Assembly (NCBI RefSeq): GCF_000183425.1
Contig: NC_014759.1
Coordinates: forward strand, 2,759,001 to 2,823,000
Origin: Marivirga tractuosa DSM 4126
Lineage (GTDB): Bacteria > Bacteroidota > Bacteroidia > Cytophagales > Cyclobacteriaceae
Length of the DNA stretch: 64,000 bases
Direction: 5' to 3'
The position numbers and the translations under genes are program-made. Positions within the stretch are counted from its first letter, which is position 1; each line of letters begins with the position of its first letter. A model generated the notes under the pieces. That model made no database searches and was not told the DNA's origin. It saw nothing but the letters and a program-made list of their open reading frames with translations. Of the stretch, positions 811 through 9,483 are shown piece after piece.

Positions 811-1227
811 AAGCTTACTATTTTCGGCTCAAACCCAACTATTGGATTAGCACCGCATCTAAAAGTGGGCGTTTCCTTGAATGAAAATGTCCGATGCTCT
901 ACTAAATTTATTAAAAAATAGGGACTTCTGGAAGTGCTATCTGAAATCTATTTTCTTGGGAATGTGGTGTAAGTGATGATCTTTCAGCTAGTTACCTGAT
1001 CATGAGATGGGAACAGAGCAATTTTTCAAGTATAAACAGTCCAAGCGTACGCTTGAACTAGATGGTTTCACTTTTATACAGCACAGGCGGACGCTTGCGC
1101 TAGGGCGGTCCAGCCAAACTACCATCTGGTTCAGGCATCCGCTTGGATCATTACCCTATACCTAAGGGATAAATTTTAAATGCATTGCGTAAGTATCTAA
1201 TTATCCTTAGCTTCGTCTTATATTTTA
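811..1227. other. Gene-free divergent intergenic region
   Basis: No convincing gene lies between the leftward DUF3179 gene and the rightward riboswitch operon. The stretch carries palindromic repeats (listed separately) and must hold promoters in both directions. I cannot place either promoter with confidence. Confidence 0.7.
1039..1146. repeat. Dispersed palindromic repeat, inverted pair
   Basis: Bases 1042-1066 contain CAAGCGTACGCTTG followed by AACTAGATGGT. Bases 1120-1146 carry a close inverted copy (ACCATCTGGTTCA then CCGCTTGGA). Between them, 1082-1101 is a related unit, CACAGGCGGACGCTTGCGCTAG. Related units recur at 9371-9396 and 9460-9483, and a fragment at about 8508-8525, so this is a dispersed non-coding family and not a single operator. 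Function is unknown. Confidence 0.65.
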
Positions 1228-1303
1228 AATGGGGTGCCAACTGAAGGGCTGAGATTATACCCAAATAACCTGATCTAGGTAATGCTAGCGTAGGAATTGT
1301 GAA
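1228..1303 (+). promoter_or_regulatory. TPP (thiamine pyrophosphate) riboswitch aptamer
   Basis: The THI-box landmarks occur in order: GGGGTGCC at 1231-1238, GGGCTGAGA at 1246-1254, ACCC at 1259-1262, then ACCTGAT at 1268-1274 and AATGCTAGCGTAGGAA from 1281. The expected helices can be drawn: GCC/GGC for P3, GGG/CCC for P2, CTAG/CTAG for P5, and a weak AAT/ATT closing P1. These are the diagnostic bases of the TPP aptamer. It lies 55 bases upstream of the methyltransferase start, so it should control the whole downstream four-gene operon in response to thiamine pyrophosphate. Confidence 0.92.
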
Positions 1304-1333
1304 AACCAATCGAACTTCATCTTCCCCTGCATC

Positions 1334-1356
1334 CCTAGATCTTAAATTCTTAGATC
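1334..1356 (+). promoter_or_regulatory. Putative riboswitch expression platform next to the start codon
   Basis: GATCT at 1338-1342 and AGATC at 1352-1356 can form a perfect five-base-pair hairpin whose 3' side ends one base before the ATG at 1358. The overlapping octamer CCTAGATC at 1334-1341 is perfectly complementary to GATCTAGG at 1272-1279 inside the aptamer. The two pairings exclude each other. I infer a translational switch: when TPP folds the aptamer, the hairpin forms against the start codon; without TPP, the aptamer strand captures 1334-1341 and frees it. There is no T-run, so transcription termination is less likely. Confidence 0.5.
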
Positions 1357-1357
1357 G

Positions 1358-2083
1358 ATGACTCAAATTTCAAAAAAGGAAAAATTCGATGTCGCCACCG
1401 GTGAATTGCGCAATTGGCAAGGAAGACAGGAGTGGTTTTTTAATAGAGATGATACCGACCACTACGAGGCCTATTACGAAGGACCCTATAAGCGTCAGGA
1501 AGTTTGGCAAAAAAAGACGTTGGAAGGACTTATCAAGAAAGACAGCCGAGTTGAAAGCTTATTGGAATATGGCTGTGGTACTACCCGTTTCACCAGATGG
1601 TGGCATGAAATAGGAATTCAGGCTACAGGCGGTGATATTTCTCCTTTTATGTTGGCCCAGGGTGTTCATCTGTTCGATGGAGATCTTGTTTTAGCTGATT
1701 CCCATCATATGCCATTCAAAAATCATACTTTTGATGCGCTCGCCTTCATCACCACTTTTGAATATTACAAAAGACCTATTGAGGTAATCCGTGAAGCCGC
1801 AAGAGTAGGTAAATATGGAATCATTTTCGGAATGATGAACCGCAATACACCCAAATTAGTGCGAAGAAGAGTGCAGCAGTTATTTGGGCAGAACAATTAT
1901 TACGTAACGGCTAACTTTTATACGCCCGCTTCTTTGAAAGAACTCATTGCTGAGGCGCTCCCTGACCGGGATTATAGCATTCAGTGGAATGCGACTGGCT
2001 TACCTAAGTGGTTTCCACGTCAGCAATGGAAATTACCTTATGGCGATTTTTTTGGTTTGTATGTACAATTTAATGATGTGTGA
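1358..2083 (+). CDS. Class I SAM-dependent methyltransferase in TPP-riboswitch operon
   Basis: This 241-residue protein has a Rossmann methyltransferase core: motif I is YGCGTTRFTRWW at about residue 70, followed by the acidic GGDISPFML, and a motif-IV-like region DALAFITTFEYY near residue 125. The N-terminal 65 residues are charged and lack a signal peptide, so it should be cytosolic. It is the first gene after the TPP riboswitch; its TGA overlaps the next ATG (TGATG), which indicates translational coupling. The substrate is not recognisable from sequence. The operon also encodes a Trm112-like protein, and Trm112 proteins are known activators of class I methyltransferases, so the two may act together; that is inference. 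Confidence 0.85.
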   Translation: MTQISKKEKFDVATGELRNWQGRQEWFFNRDDTDHYEAYYEGPYKRQEVWQKKTLEGLIKKDSRVESLLEYGCGTTRFTRWWHEIGIQATGGDISPFMLAQGVHLFDGDLVLADSHHMPFKNHTFDALAFITTFEYYKRPIEVIREAARVGKYGIIFGMMNRNTPKLVRRRVQQLFGQNNYYVTANFYTPASLKELIAEALPDRDYSIQWNATGLPKWFPRQQWKLPYGDFFGLYVQFNDV

Positions 2084-3147
2084 TGGCGGCTTTTGATGAT
2101 CAATATGGAAAAGTAGATGCTCAGGTCTTTAAAGAGGATTTACTGAATAAATGTGGGGCAAAAAGACCGGAAGTGATTTGCGGTCCGAGATTTGGCGTTG
2201 ATACCGCCATAATTGAGTTGGGCAATGGAAAAGCACTGGCCACTTCCAGCGATCCGCTATCTCTGATTCCTTCTCTGGGCATGGAAATTTCTGCACACTT
2301 ATCCGTGCACTTATTAGCCAATGATATGTCAACCACTGGCTTTGCACCTCAGTTTGCTCAGTTTGTGCTCAATCTTCCGGTCAGCTTGACGCGAGAAGAT
2401 TTTAATTTGTATTGGAGTCACATTGATGCACTCTGTAAAAAATTAGGCATTAGTATTACGGGTGGCCATACCGGCCAGATTCCGGGGCAGGAATCTACCA
2501 TTTCCGGAGGAGGCACTATGTTTTTGCAGGCTCCGAAAGATAAAATATTAAGCAGTAATAATGCAGCCATAGGGGATAGCATTATCATGACCAAACATGC
2601 GGCTTTATCATCTTCTTCGCTTTTAGCCAATGCGTTTCCTGAAACGGTCAGTCAAAAGTGCGGTGAAGAAATTCAGAAAATTGCCGCCCACAACTTTTGG
2701 GATCTTTCTGTAATGAAGGAAGCCTTAGCCGCCTCCAGCATTTTGGAACCGAACCAAGAATTGCATGCCATGCATGATGTAACGGAAGGCGGGATTTTAG
2801 GAGCATTGGATGAAATGGCAGATGCCTCCGGCTGCGGTTTCACAGTGGAATTGGATAAAATTAAGCTCAATGAGGAAGTGAAGCAGATTACAGATCTGTT
2901 TGAGATCGATCCCTTTATCTCCATAGGTGCTGGTTCTATGTTGATGGCAGTAAAGCCGGGACATGAAGACCGCTTGATCAAAGGCCTTTCTAAAGAAGGA
3001 GTTGAAGCTTGTAAAATTGGCGTTTTCAAGGAAGGTTCTGCAAAGCAAGTAGTGGATGCGAATGGCAAGCAGAGGTCTTTTACTTTTGATGGAGTGGATC
3101 CTTATTGGGCCGCATTTTTCAAAGCATTTCAAGCAGGATGGCAATGA
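2083..3147 (+). CDS. AIR synthase-fold (PurM/HypE/ThiL-like) protein
   Basis: A 354-residue protein. Family hallmarks are FGVDTAII then SSDPLSLIP near the N-terminus, LSVHLLANDMSTTG in place of the usual NDL/NDI segment, ISITGGHTGQI in the middle, and HDVTEGGILGAL near residue 230, which is the glycine-rich AIRS C-domain signature. This fold binds ATP and includes PurM, HypE, SelD and ThiL. The TPP riboswitch makes a thiamine-related kinase role attractive, but the N-terminal motif is closer to HypE-like AIRS proteins than to true ThiL, so I do not assign a symbol. I use the ATG at 2083, overlapping the upstream stop; a GTG at 2080 is also possible. It overlaps the next gene by ATGA. Confidence 0.82.
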   Translation: MAAFDDQYGKVDAQVFKEDLLNKCGAKRPEVICGPRFGVDTAIIELGNGKALATSSDPLSLIPSLGMEISAHLSVHLLANDMSTTGFAPQFAQFVLNLPVSLTREDFNLYWSHIDALCKKLGISITGGHTGQIPGQESTISGGGTMFLQAPKDKILSSNNAAIGDSIIMTKHAALSSSSLLANAFPETVSQKCGEEIQKIAAHNFWDLSVMKEALAASSILEPNQELHAMHDVTEGGILGALDEMADASGCGFTVELDKIKLNEEVKQITDLFEIDPFISIGAGSMLMAVKPGHEDRLIKGLSKEGVEACKIGVFKEGSAKQVVDANGKQRSFTFDGVDPYWAAFFKAFQAGWQ

Positions 3148-3770
3148 AAAAACTAGCAGGACTTTATTTGGTGATTGACCCTAGTCAAGAGCATGATAGC
3201 TTGTTGAATAAACTTCATACGGCTTTGAAAGGGGGCATTGACATTGTACAGATTTGGGATCATTGGCCAAAAGCTCAGGACAAGGAAACGCAATTAGAAT
3301 TTATAAAGCGAGCAAAAAAATTGACAAAGGATTTTCAAGTGCCGCTGCTCATGAATCAAGATTGGGAATTGGCAGTGGAAACAGGATTAGACGGTGTACA
3401 TTTTGACCGACTACCTGCCGATTTTCCAAGTATTCAGCCCCAGTTGAAAGGCCAGTATATTGGCCTTACGGTCACGAATAATCTGGAAGAAGTGCAAATG
3501 GCTGAGCAAAACAGCTTGTCTTATATCAGCTTTTGCTCGGTATTTCCATCTCCTTCGGTTGACAGTTGCGATATTGTGCAGCCCGAAAGCATCAAGAAAG
3601 CAAAGGAAATCAGCAATATGCCCATTTTTCTTTCGGGAGGGATCAATCAAGAGAATTTCGAGCAATTGAAGGCCCTACCTTTCAATGGCATTGCGGTTAT
3701 TTCAGGGATCTTAAATGAAGAGGACCCTGAAGCGGCTGCCAAAAAATATAAAGAAAAATTGCAGGATTAA
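3144..3770 (+). CDS. Diverged thiamine phosphate synthase (ThiE/TenI-like) protein
   Basis: The 208-residue TIM-barrel has the ThiE plan: GLYLVID at the N-terminus, GGIDIVQIWDH near residue 30, LDGVHFDRL near 85, YISFCSVFPSP near 130, FLSGGIN near 165 and FNGIAVISGI near 185. Canonical ThiE has Q-x-R-x-K in the second motif; here Q36 remains but R and K are W38 and H40. The N-D metal motif is N71-Q72, and the T-x-T-K loop after VFP is replaced. These residues bind pyrophosphate and magnesium in known ThiE enzymes, so ordinary activity is doubtful. A longer reading from 3105 exists, but the ATG at 3144 overlaps the previous stop as ATGA and fits the family N-terminus. It is under the TPP riboswitch. 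Confidence 0.82.
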   Translation: MKKLAGLYLVIDPSQEHDSLLNKLHTALKGGIDIVQIWDHWPKAQDKETQLEFIKRAKKLTKDFQVPLLMNQDWELAVETGLDGVHFDRLPADFPSIQPQLKGQYIGLTVTNNLEEVQMAEQNSLSYISFCSVFPSPSVDSCDIVQPESIKKAKEISNMPIFLSGGINQENFEQLKALPFNGIAVISGILNEEDPEAAAKKYKEKLQD

Positions 3771-3797
3771 GAATATAGGAATTGAGATAAAAAAATT

Positions 3798-4097
3798 ATG
3801 CAAAGCAGACTATTAGAGAAAATGTGCTGCCCTTTTGATAAGGGTGATTTGAATATCAGTATTTTTAAACAGGAGGAGAACGAAATTATTGAGGGACTTT
3901 TGACTTGCTCAGATTGTCAGCGTTATTTCCCTATTATTTACGGTATTCCGATCATGACTCCTGATGAATACAGACAAAAATCATTGGAGGCTCCGGTTAT
4001 GAAGAAGTGGGGATTGGAATTGCCTGCAGGGTACCAAAGTTTTCGCTTGGATGGGCCTACCACTGCAAGGGCTTTGGAGATGGGTGATAATGGATGA
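3798..4097 (+). CDS. Trm112-like zinc-binding protein
   Basis: A 99-residue protein beginning MQSRLLEKMCCPFDKG, with a later CSDCQRYFPIIYGIPIM. Trm112 proteins typically read L-x-x-L-x-C-P, a middle insert, then C-x-x-C-x-x-x-Y-P-I-x-x-G-I-P-x-M, and this matches closely; the cysteines probably hold one zinc. It follows the ThiE-like gene by 27 bases and ends the operon. In eukaryotes and archaea Trm112 stabilises several methyltransferases, and the first gene of this operon is a methyltransferase. The last 35 residues extend beyond the minimal domain and contain no motif I recognise. Confidence 0.8.
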   Translation: MQSRLLEKMCCPFDKGDLNISIFKQEENEIIEGLLTCSDCQRYFPIIYGIPIMTPDEYRQKSLEAPVMKKWGLELPAGYQSFRLDGPTTARALEMGDNG

Positions 4098-4180: not shown

Positions 4181-5110
4181 TTATTCATTTTCTTGATACT
4201 CAAAACACGTTAAACAAGTTTCTTCACAATCATAGTCGTGTATTACGTTCCCTTTGCACTTATCTTCTACACAATCTTTTCTTATAACATTAAATTCAGC
4301 ATCACAATTAATGCAATGAATGTTAGTAGAGTCAGGCTTGTTAGGTTTTAGGAAGGCCCATTTACTCTCTAAATAGCCATAGTCACCGTCAATCGTTCTT
4401 TTGCACTCAGGACAAAAATATGCCCTTCCTAATATGTCAGTACTTAGATATTTATTCAGCTTCTTTTTACCCAAAATGTCCAAGGCAAAATCTAAATGTT
4501 TATACGCTACTGCATATTCAATGTCCCAGTCAAAATAACCAAAAAGAGGATTTTCATAATTGAAACTTCTTGTCTCTAAAAACCAAGCGTCTTTACCAAA
4601 ACAATAAGTATATGCGTTAAAGATATGGTCTAAAAGTTCCTTAGCCTTAATTGAAACGTTGTTAGCACCGTGAATAGCTTCGTTTCGTTTTTGTCTTACC
4701 GTTTCAATAAATTCAATAAACTCATTAGAGATTTTCTTTTCAGAAACTGCGCAGAACGTTGTAAGAAGTGCTTCGCCTGAAATTGTGTATAAACTGTCAA
4801 ATTCTTTGTCTGCTCTTGACGGTAATGTAGGCCAATCCGCCCTTGTTTTTTCGATTAATAAAAGTGGGGTCGTTTTACAAATCGCGGATTTCATATAGGT
4901 TTCTATTCCTTGATGTAGAAGAATTAATGAAGTCCTTATAGTACCAGAATTATGTGTCCAAATTTGCTCTAACGAAACTTCAGCTCTTATTACTTCGTCA
5001 TCATATTCATCGTATTCGTCATAAACTTTGTAGAGCAGGTTAAACGCTTGTGTCAAACATTGTTTTGAAACATCTTCAAAGTCTTTATATGTAGGTAATC
5101 TTGTTATCAC
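4181..5110 (-). CDS. HEPN-like protein with C-terminal zinc ribbons
   Basis: I do not recognise a named family for this 309-residue protein. Its middle part is alpha-helical and contains KRNEAIHG near residue 142, an R-x4-H arrangement typical of HEPN RNase domains. The C-terminal 90 residues hold repeated cysteine pairs: YFCPECKRT, HCINCDAEF, then DCVEDKCKG and CEETCLTCF, which should form two zinc ribbons. The start is a GTG at 5110; a stop lies just upstream in frame and no ATG is available. It lies 104 bases downstream of the broken OLD-like ATPase gene on the same strand. HEPN proteins often work as toxins or defence effectors, so a linked role is plausible but unproven. Confidence 0.65.
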   Translation of the reverse strand: MITRLPTYKDFEDVSKQCLTQAFNLLYKVYDEYDEYDDEVIRAEVSLEQIWTHNSGTIRTSLILLHQGIETYMKSAICKTTPLLLIEKTRADWPTLPSRADKEFDSLYTISGEALLTTFCAVSEKKISNEFIEFIETVRQKRNEAIHGANNVSIKAKELLDHIFNAYTYCFGKDAWFLETRSFNYENPLFGYFDWDIEYAVAYKHLDFALDILGKKKLNKYLSTDILGRAYFCPECKRTIDGDYGYLESKWAFLKPNKPDSTNIHCINCDAEFNVIRKDCVEDKCKGNVIHDYDCEETCLTCFEYQENE

Positions 5111-5214: not shown

Positions 5215-6579
5215 TTAATTTAAAGTTTCTTCCAAAATATCAAATACTACTCTAAAGTTTTCAAAGTCCTTTAATTCACCGTTCTCACATATCCAATCAC
5301 AAAGATTTCCTTTTTCATCTTTGTTAACTGTCCACTCTTCAGGAACAGTAATTTCTTTACCTCTAACGGTTTTTACAAATGTAGGAAAAACGTCAATAAA
5401 GGCTTTTTTTGCTAAAGTTGCCTTGGTTAAAGTTTCTTTGGATAATAAGTTTTCAATTCCCTTTTCAACTGGGTTAGATTCTTGACAAGGAATAACTCGT
5501 TTAAAAACATTATCTTTTTGAGCACCTTGTTTATTTGTGTCGCAATCATAAAGAAGTAAGATATTCTGGGGAGTAATACTCGAAAGATCGGAATTAAAAT
5601 GTTTCCATATTTTATCAATGTTTCCGAATCCATTTGAATCTTTCAATTCAACTTCTTCAATCAATTCAGTTTTTTTTAGAAATTCTGCAGCTTTATTTAA
5701 ATATCTTATATCATAATCTCCTTCAACAAAGACAATTGGTTTCCTCGACTTAATTATGGCATCTCGAATAGATTCTTGATATCTAGTTGACTCTCCATAG
5801 GCATTATAGGCGGTATGAAATTCGGAAAAAAGTTCTGCTGATATTCTTTCGCCTTTCGGAAGATTGAGAATGTCAAAACCATCATATCCATAAGTTTTAT
5901 TCATTCCTAATAAAAAAAGTGGGGAATGTGAAGTAACGATAAATTGTACATTTGGGAAAAATCGTAGAAGTTTGGGAAGAAGTTCAAATTGAAATGATGT
6001 GTGAAGGTGTAAATCAATCTCGTCAATCACAACTAGACCTTGTACATCATTAGTGGATGAAATGTTTTGCCCAGTTTTATCAAAGTCTCTTAGGATTGAG
6101 CAAAATAGAGAGAAAATTAACGCTTGCCCTGTTGATAATTGCTGAATGTCAGGCACAAAGGCTTTTTCGTTTCTCATTATAGAAATCACGCGATTATTTT
6201 TGCCTCCTATACCTATACGATAAGTAGCTGGATCACTAAAGAGGGTTGACAAAAAACTGTTAATCACTGCCAGCAACTGGGAGTTTGGTCCTTCATAACT
6301 CCCTCCGCCAACCACCGCTTGCAGTAATCTGATTTGATCAACTTGATTGTTTTGAGGATTTAGTAAATCTTGAATTTGAATATTTTTTCTCTCTAAAACT
6401 CTGCTATCAAAAACTACATCTAGTAGCCAATTTTTCGTCTTACTTAAAGTAGTATCACAAATTATCTGTCTATTCGACAAATTCCTTAATTTAGGTTCCT
6501 CTGAAAATTCTACTTTTTTTAAGTTATGGTGATTGATCCATGCTGGTTCTTCAAATCGATTTGGAGGAAAATAGAGCAA
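5215..6579 (-). CDS. C-terminal fragment of the interrupted OLD-like ATPase (TOPRIM part)
   Basis: The 454-codon open frame after the internal stop; it can start only at a TTG (6579) with no visible ribosome-binding site, and its reading frame simply continues that of the upstream fragment. It holds the ABC-type signature LSTGQ, Walker B VVIDEIDLH, the switch histidine in TSHSP, and TOPRIM-like acidic motifs FVEGDYD and YDCDTN. It lacks Walker A. Without readthrough or reinitiation it would not be made as part of a working enzyme. Confidence 0.6.
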   Translation of the reverse strand: MLYFPPNRFEEPAWINHHNLKKVEFSEEPKLRNLSNRQIICDTTLSKTKNWLLDVVFDSRVLERKNIQIQDLLNPQNNQVDQIRLLQAVVGGGSYEGPNSQLLAVINSFLSTLFSDPATYRIGIGGKNNRVISIMRNEKAFVPDIQQLSTGQALIFSLFCSILRDFDKTGQNISSTNDVQGLVVIDEIDLHLHTSFQFELLPKLLRFFPNVQFIVTSHSPLFLLGMNKTYGYDGFDILNLPKGERISAELFSEFHTAYNAYGESTRYQESIRDAIIKSRKPIVFVEGDYDIRYLNKAAEFLKKTELIEEVELKDSNGFGNIDKIWKHFNSDLSSITPQNILLLYDCDTNKQGAQKDNVFKRVIPCQESNPVEKGIENLLSKETLTKATLAKKAFIDVFPTFVKTVRGKEITVPEEWTVNKDEKGNLCDWICENGELKDFENFRVVFDILEETLN

Positions 6580-6675
6580 ACTGTTTTTTATATAAATATC
6601 CCTGAGCGCTTGAGTGTTAGAATTGAAATTTGAATTGAAAAATGAATACTCTTCGTTCGGAATTGAATTCCAATC

Positions 6676-7038
6676 TTAATGTAATGGGGTATACTTCAGT
6701 TTTTCTTCGAATTCTTTTCTTGTTAAGTTTAATTGAAACTCTGAACAATAAAAACTACCTAAAAGCTCTATTTTACCATGGTAAAAATCTTCACCGTTCC
6801 TGATATAATTTGATGATCTAAGTTTATAAACTTTCCCTTTTTCTACCTCAACATCATCAAAAATAACTTGCTTACCTGCAATAATGGAATTAATTATAAA
6901 TGATATTGCTATGCTTTTTCCAGAGCCATTCCTACCAACTAATACGAGAGGTTTTATAACGTTATCTTTTGCTTCAAATGAATGATTAATATTGTGAATA
7001 GGTCCAGTATTCTCTAATATCAGTTTTTTTAAAATCAT
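6676..7038 (-). CDS. N-terminal fragment of the interrupted OLD-like ATPase
   Basis: The first 120 codons before the internal TAA. They encode MILKKLILENTGPIHNI, typical of the SMC/RecF-like ATPase N-terminus, and the Walker A loop GRNGSGKSIAISF at about residues 35-47. This piece lacks Walker B and the nuclease domain, so on its own it should not be an active ATPase. If expressed, it would be the only part made from the native start codon. Confidence 0.6.
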   Translation of the reverse strand: MILKKLILENTGPIHNINHSFEAKDNVIKPLVLVGRNGSGKSIAISFIINSIIAGKQVIFDDVEVEKGKVYKLRSSNYIRNGEDFYHGKIELLGSFYCSEFQLNLTRKEFEEKLKYTPLH

Positions 7039-9370: not shown

Positions 9371-9483
9371 CGGACACTTGCGCTATTGGGTGGATAGGCA
9401 AATGTCACTATTGATCCTTCGCTTCTTCTTTTCTAATCACATTCTTGTTTCTTGATCTAAGTCCAAGCGGACGCTTGAACTAG
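9371..9483. repeat. Dispersed palindromic repeat, second copy pair
   Basis: CACAAGCGGACACTTGCGCTA begins near 9371, and GTCCAAGCGGACGCTTGAACTAG lies at about 9460-9483. The first matches the unit at 1082-1101 and the second the unit at 1039-1061. The two unit types therefore occur together twice in the window, in intergenic DNA both times. Confidence 0.65.

Follow-up and report, generated by a model that had tools for sequence, protein, structure and literature searches.

In gut Bacteroidetes, the accessible parts of one account describe synthesis, OMthi and pnuT-tnr3 operons under thiamine pyrophosphate (TPP) riboswitches, with YjbQ and THI4-like proteins as replacements and YjbQ as the named substitute for ThiE (PMC5613172). 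As far as the available sections of two further papers go, thiE, thiC and tenA are among the markers of vitamin B1 strategy (PMC12442306, PMC10470507), and Bacteroidetes express genes for thiazole (THZ) and B1 synthesis without those for hydroxymethylpyrimidine (HMP) synthesis (PMC12442306). Here, we analyzed a window of 64,000 nucleotides from Marivirga tractuosa DSM 4126 (NC_014759.1, positions 2,759,001 to 2,823,000 of the forward strand), in which a TPP riboswitch precedes four genes coding for a methyltransferase, an AIR-synthase-fold (AIRS) protein, a ThiE-like protein and a Trm112-like protein. The cassette probably serves to salvage or rebuild vitamin B1 in a manner not described before. 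The accessible part of the account of Bacteroidetes thiamine operons (PMC5613172) does not mention it, and a keyword search of the literature found no paper on this four-gene set.

A TPP riboswitch and four genes form a conserved cassette

The aptamer exceeded the gathering score of RF00059 (65.7 versus 54.3 bits) and was the sole Rfam match in the window to exceed gathering scores. This full-length match bears out the "clear TPP aptamer" of the original prediction, whose start at position 1228 nevertheless falls inside the aptamer (Table 1). The four genes had also been described as overlapping. This holds for the first three, whose open reading frames (ORFs) overlap end to start, but not for the Trm112-like gene, which begins 27 bases past the end of the ThiE-like ORF. 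Since the next long ORF downstream lies on the other strand, the Trm112-like gene seems to be the last of the cassette.

Table 1. Coordinates of the cassette and of other features discussed in the text. Positions without a prefix are those of the window; L, locus; G, genome.
Feature	Position	Strand	Basis or remark
TPP riboswitch aptamer (RF00059)	1220-1313	+	cmscan 65.7 bits, E 1.2e-10, whole model 1-105
Class I S-adenosylmethionine (SAM)-dependent methyltransferase, 241 aa	1358-2083	+	Methyltransf_11 4.6e-14, above cut-off
AIR-synthase-fold protein, 354-355 aa	GTG 2080 or ATG 2083 to 3147	+	Pfam AIRS and AIRS_C (3.4e-25)
ThiE-like TIM barrel, 208 aa	3144-3770	+	Pfam TMP-TENI, above cut-off
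Trm112-like small protein with CxxC-type cysteine pairs, 99 aa	3798-4097	+	Trm112p PF03966, 34.7 vs 22 bits
Next long ORF 3' of the Trm112-like gene	4181-5110	-	
Tandem TPP riboswitches of the home genome	L005:7095-7355 = G000:C2:3883094-3883354	-	both above gathering score
TonB receptor gene, Ekhidna lutea	L020 3924-6146		
Acyl-CoA-dehydrogenase-like protein	L167:1123-2127; L213:3776-4888		by Pfam
Acyl-CoA-dehydrogenase-like protein	L171:1209-2234; L214:5261-6364		by eye
Second TMP-TENI-type protein	L211:3365-3997; L212:3225-3857; L213:6892-7518		
Two NMT1/THI5-like proteins (G013)	L154:2839-4811		
ThiD and ThiE frame fragments	L217 (G028:C12:708000-716000)		
Palindromic repeats	1024-1147		upstream of the riboswitch
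Similar palindromic element	9461-9480		
AAA_21-type ORF	5215-6579	-	
Short ATPase-like ORF	6676-7038		before the AAA_21-type ORF

A pattern derived from 18 aligned ThiE-like proteins matched 182 stretches in named genomes. Of these, 116 coded for a relative, and we retained the 80 best loci. In all 80, the AIRS, ThiE-like and Trm112-like genes were on one strand and in the same order. The methyltransferase gene was found in 79, the exception being L045, whose contig begins inside the AIRS gene. The gap 5' of the Trm112-like match had a median of 18 bases and a maximum of 535, and no fifth conserved neighbor gene was found across the 80 loci. The AIRS protein, used as the sole query against 395 genomes of the phylum, matched 13 of them at E<=1e-25 (2.8e-99 in the weakest case). 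All of these matches were cassette members, and all four genes occurred together in the 13 genomes, the window's own included. The methyltransferase was present in 7/198 phylum genomes, again counting the window's. Hence, rare co-occurrence does not speak against the single pathway that had been proposed: starting from two query proteins, the genes were together in every locus except the contig-cut L045.

We then considered the riboswitch in a set of 40 genomes picked for spread (the home genome and those of 39 of the 80 loci), of which 38, mostly draft assemblies, were examined. RF00059 was found directly upstream of the methyltransferase gene in 34 of the 38, in each case above the gathering score and 1.8-2.0 kb 5' of the ThiE-like domain; the search recovered matches in 10 of 14 control genomes. 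Among the phylum-sampled loci besides the window, 11/12 carried RF00059 above the gathering score before the cassette. The search for the same four-gene order with a riboswitch, suggested along with the original prediction, thus found the order kept and a TPP riboswitch before the cassette in most cases. Complementarity of the leader to the aptamer was not convincing, exceeding the 95th percentile of shuffles in 5 of 50 loci.

The cassette occurs in many Bacteroidota and Balneolota, but patchily. Among the listed members of the home family, it was present in the home genome and in G357 and missing from 7 others. The methyltransferase was its most conserved member, with 67-96% identity to the window protein over the loci, compared to 44-93% for the AIRS protein, 38-86% for the ThiE-like protein and 43-95% for the Trm112-like protein. 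As a yardstick, identity to the home proteins in the Balneolales locus L044 was 33% for ThiL and 73% for the cassette methyltransferase. In a tree of the first three proteins from 75 loci, close relatives clustered, Cyclobacterium grouped with Flavobacteriaceae and Balneolota fell among Bacteroidota. Some transfer of the cassette would fit this tree, although the tree is no proof of it.

Thiamine synthesis genes are scarce in cassette genomes

The home genome harbored no ThiC, no ThiG at E<=0.001, no member of the ThiD family at E<=1e-10 and no second TMP-TENI protein over the cut-off. The absence of thiC, thiD and thiG, originally noted for the operon, is therefore confirmed genome-wide. Among the 38 cassette genomes, full-length ThiC was found in 2 (G019 and G037; 13 of 14 controls positive), full-length ThiD in the same 2 and full-length ThiG in only 1 (G019), with 14/14 controls positive for each of the latter two. 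ThiG gave some match in 24 genomes and ThiD matched at E<=1e-10 in 9, the rest of these matches being partial. The cassette protein was the sole full TMP-TENI protein in 31 of the 38 genomes, and another was present in 7. In one genome that carries the cassette (G028), we observed ThiD and ThiE frame fragments close together, one of them with a stop, as if an old thiamine pathway were decaying.

TPP riboswitches precede importer genes in cassette genomes

The home genome contains four TPP riboswitches in total. A tandem pair lies directly 5' of a TonB receptor gene, behind which stands a DUF6687 gene whose product may be part of thiamine uptake. A further riboswitch lies directly 5' of a PnuC/PnuT-type transporter gene, which overlaps a NadR-type kinase gene. 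In 18 cassette genomes we found 20 further TPP sites, some of them below the gathering score. Of these, 17 precede a TonB receptor and 2 a PnuT-type transporter, neither being seen at the site in L170, and a receptor or transporter was found behind a TPP site in 18/18 genomes examined. The 17 receptors share 27-49% identity with the home receptor, a similarity that is no proof of thiamine cargo. In Ekhidna lutea (G002), the RF00059 match is located 4.2 kb 5' of the ThiE-like domain, and a TonB receptor gene occupies the interval up to the cassette.

ThiL of the home genome is encoded away from the cassette (TIGR01379, 326.8 bits; cut-off 184.15). In L044, however, a ThiL gene (290.7 bits) begins 22 bases past the Trm112-like gene on the same strand. 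A looser ThiL search of the flanks revealed no clear gene besides this one; its weak hits were the AIRS genes of the cassettes themselves.

Additional genes were observed at some TPP sites. An acyl-CoA-dehydrogenase-like protein of 334-370 aa, possibly another new B1 salvage gene, is encoded behind the PnuT-type transporter near a TPP riboswitch match below the gathering score. At three loci, a weak TPP riboswitch match of 36-39 bits accompanies a TonB receptor that is followed by a second TMP-TENI-type protein; between receptor and second protein, L213 has PnuT-type transporter, acyl-CoA-dehydrogenase-like and phosphodiesterase-type genes. In G013, two NMT1/THI5-like proteins follow a TPP riboswitch and a TonB receptor.

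Features of the cassette proteins

The ThiE-like protein retains the ThiE/TenI barrel fold and the phosphate loops, but the window protein scored below the cut-offs of both the thiE equivalog TIGR00693 (119.9 versus 145.1 bits) and the tenI equivalog NF005819 (65.6 versus 251 bits). We compared the residues of 81 cassette proteins with just two canonical sequences. All 81 retained Q57 and the phosphate-loop glycine; R59 was replaced by W in 79, K61 by N or H in 79 and D112 by P in 77, while D93 was still D in 10. The position of K159 holds V in a profile alignment and S in another, the alignment being uncertain there. We take R59, K61, D93, D112 and K159 to be the ThiE residues for HMP pyrophosphate and Mg; judging from these alignments, they are mostly replaced in the cassette proteins. 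Two cysteines, in turn, are invariant in all 81.

The predicted structure of the methyltransferase was weak (pLDDT 69), and the fold matches of this model point to no substrate. The AIRS protein scored below the cut-off of every NCBIfam model that it matched (hypE, 69.9 versus 251.6 bits; selD, 61.7 versus 125; thiL, 57.9 versus 184.15). The Trm112-like protein reached 67.6 bits with NF038101, the archaeal methyltransferase-partner Trm112 (cut-off 77), and matched the archaeal chains 6zxw_H and 6f5z_C in a phmmer search. Because of this resemblance and because both genes share one operon, a simple guess is that the methyltransferase and the Trm112-like protein form a heterodimer.

A candidate module for vitamin B1 salvage or reassembly

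We see an even chance that the cassette, repressed by TPP, serves to salvage or reassemble vitamin B1, with thiamine phosphate (TMP) as its end product. B1 acquisition under shortage is suggested by the TPP-sensing switch, the importers that share its regulon, the ThiL that follows one copy and the missing synthesis genes, taken together. Salvage in particular is favored by the scarcity of ThiC, ThiG and ThiD, by the TonB receptor arrangement in Ekhidna and by the ThiL gene that immediately follows the cassette in L044. At low TPP, the switch would permit expression of the four proteins, along with thiamine importers under other TPP switches, and the cell would take up not plain thiamine but a related compound, for example a broken or altered vitamer. 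The AIRS-fold protein would activate an intermediate using ATP, and the methyltransferase, probably in a heterodimer with the Trm112-like protein, would transfer a methyl group. Without using HMP pyrophosphate, the ThiE-like barrel would act on a phosphorylated species of thiazole or thiamine, perhaps via an invariant cysteine, and the product would enter the TPP pool as TMP through ThiL. A more far-reaching version, which we regard as doubtful, is that the cassette constitutes a complete new TMP route that bypasses HMP pyrophosphate and rebuilds B1 in organisms without ThiC, ThiD and ThiG. In such a route, an ATP-dependent AIRS-fold enzyme and a methyltransferase held by Trm112 would supply a ThiE-derived barrel with cysteine chemistry.

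Several observations weigh against salvage or reassembly. To our knowledge, no methyltransferase is known in thiamine salvage. TonB receptor and ThiL neighbors were each found in only 1 of the 80 loci, and G019 and G037 have the cassette alongside ThiC. Furthermore, ThiC is uncommon in the phylum anyway (67/198 genomes, 15/104 genera), so that its absence, as in 0/7 positives among the cassette genomes of that sample, is by itself weak evidence. The survey covered ThiC, ThiG and ThiD; THI4-type thiazole synthase, YjbQ, TenA, ThiM and thiamine pyrophosphokinase were not searched for. Finally, the riboswitch is not universal: L149, one of the 12 further phylum-sampled loci, had no RF00059 match over the cut-off, the only match in Ekhidna lutea stayed below the gathering score (51.2 versus 54.3 bits), and three Lewinella-type cassette genomes gave no match, even near the cassette at a loose threshold.

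Other explanations have to be set beside salvage. One, which we consider unlikely, is that the cassette itself makes TMP, joining or building the rings by a new route that stands in for ThiC, ThiD, ThiG and ThiE and leaves its hosts B1 sufficient. The TPP riboswitch would suit this route, as would the lack of full-length ThiC and ThiD in 36/38 genomes and of full-length ThiG in 37/38, the 31/38 genomes in which the cassette provides the sole full TMP-TENI protein, and ThiL directly behind the cassette in L044, an adjacency that fits TMP making and salvage alike. However, TPP-switched importers are kept in all 18 genomes examined, and a self-sufficient cell would need them less; four proteins also seem few for constructing both rings, and related genomes manage without the cassette. 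Least of all do we believe that the ThiE-like protein works as an ordinary TMP synthase joining salvaged HMP and thiazole, with the other three genes serving or accompanying it. This is highly improbable given that the pyrophosphate and Mg residues are replaced in nearly all 81 members, that the TIGR00693 score (119.9 bits) stays below 145.1 and that full-length ThiD is missing in 36 of the 38 genomes.

The altered active site of the ThiE-like protein would agree with a cassette whose product, made under a TPP-sensing switch, is a modified thiamine, an antivitamin or a different cofactor, for which methylated thiamine analogues derived from bacimethrin offer a comparison. Here the methyltransferase, as first and most conserved gene, would find a natural place, and the scattered occurrence of the cassette would fit as well, as would a tree that cuts across host families. 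Nevertheless, we judge such a product distinctly unlikely, since the riboswitch, the TonB receptor in Ekhidna and ThiL in L044 indicate B1 acquisition at TPP shortage and no conserved fifth gene, such as an exporter, lies beside the cassette. The interpretation first offered for this operon is thus supported in part: the idea of one pathway under one TPP switch withstood the co-occurrence check, and salvage is favored, with salvaged thiamine, modified thiamine and another cofactor as candidate products.

If salvage or reassembly is correct, many Bacteroidota and Balneolota deemed plain B1 auxotrophs own further means to meet their B1 need, and the label "thiamine phosphate synthase" is wrong for the cassette ThiE-like subfamily. 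This protein could be counted in surveys that rely on thiE to indicate B1 synthesis. The function of the cassette is directly testable, since this small and strictly conserved unit occurs in cultured genera (Algoriphagus, Pontibacter, Pedobacter and Mucilaginibacter).

Other features of the window

Palindromic repeats were observed upstream of the riboswitch, with a similar element near 9461; a loose pattern of this repeat had 6 matches in the window versus 2.2 expected. Beyond the cassette, the AAA_21-type ORF and the short ATPase-like ORF before it (5215-7038) may be one interrupted gene.

Comparison with known systems

The AIRS family is ATP-dependent; HypE carries a C-terminal cysteine and ThiL a GDDAA motif. 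The cassette AIRS protein has in common with HypE, SelD and ThiL the AIRS N- and C-terminal domains, and it conserves the SDP, ND and DVTEGG motifs. Unlike HypE, however, it ends in FQAGWQ, without the C-terminal cysteine, and unlike ThiL it lacks GDDAA. Compared to ThiE of B. subtilis (3o15, 1g67), the ThiE-like protein has R59, K61 and D112 nearly always and D93 mostly replaced, adds two invariant cysteines and scores below the thiE equivalog cut-off. It matches TenI of B. subtilis (1yad, 3qh2) less well than ThiE. The Trm112-like protein resembles archaeal Trm112-type chains, its closest known system being Trm112 with its methyltransferase partners (Haloferax 6f5z).

At the level of the operon, the cassette is probably TPP-riboswitch controlled, like the Bacteroidetes thiamine operons thiSEGCHF-tenI, OMthi and pnuT-tnr3 in the accessible part of their description (PMC5613172). 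Unlike the gene set of those operons, most of the 38 cassette hosts are without ThiC, ThiG and ThiD. TonB receptors and PnuT-type transporters share the regulon in cassette genomes, as they do in the thiamine operons covered by the same sections (PMC5613172).

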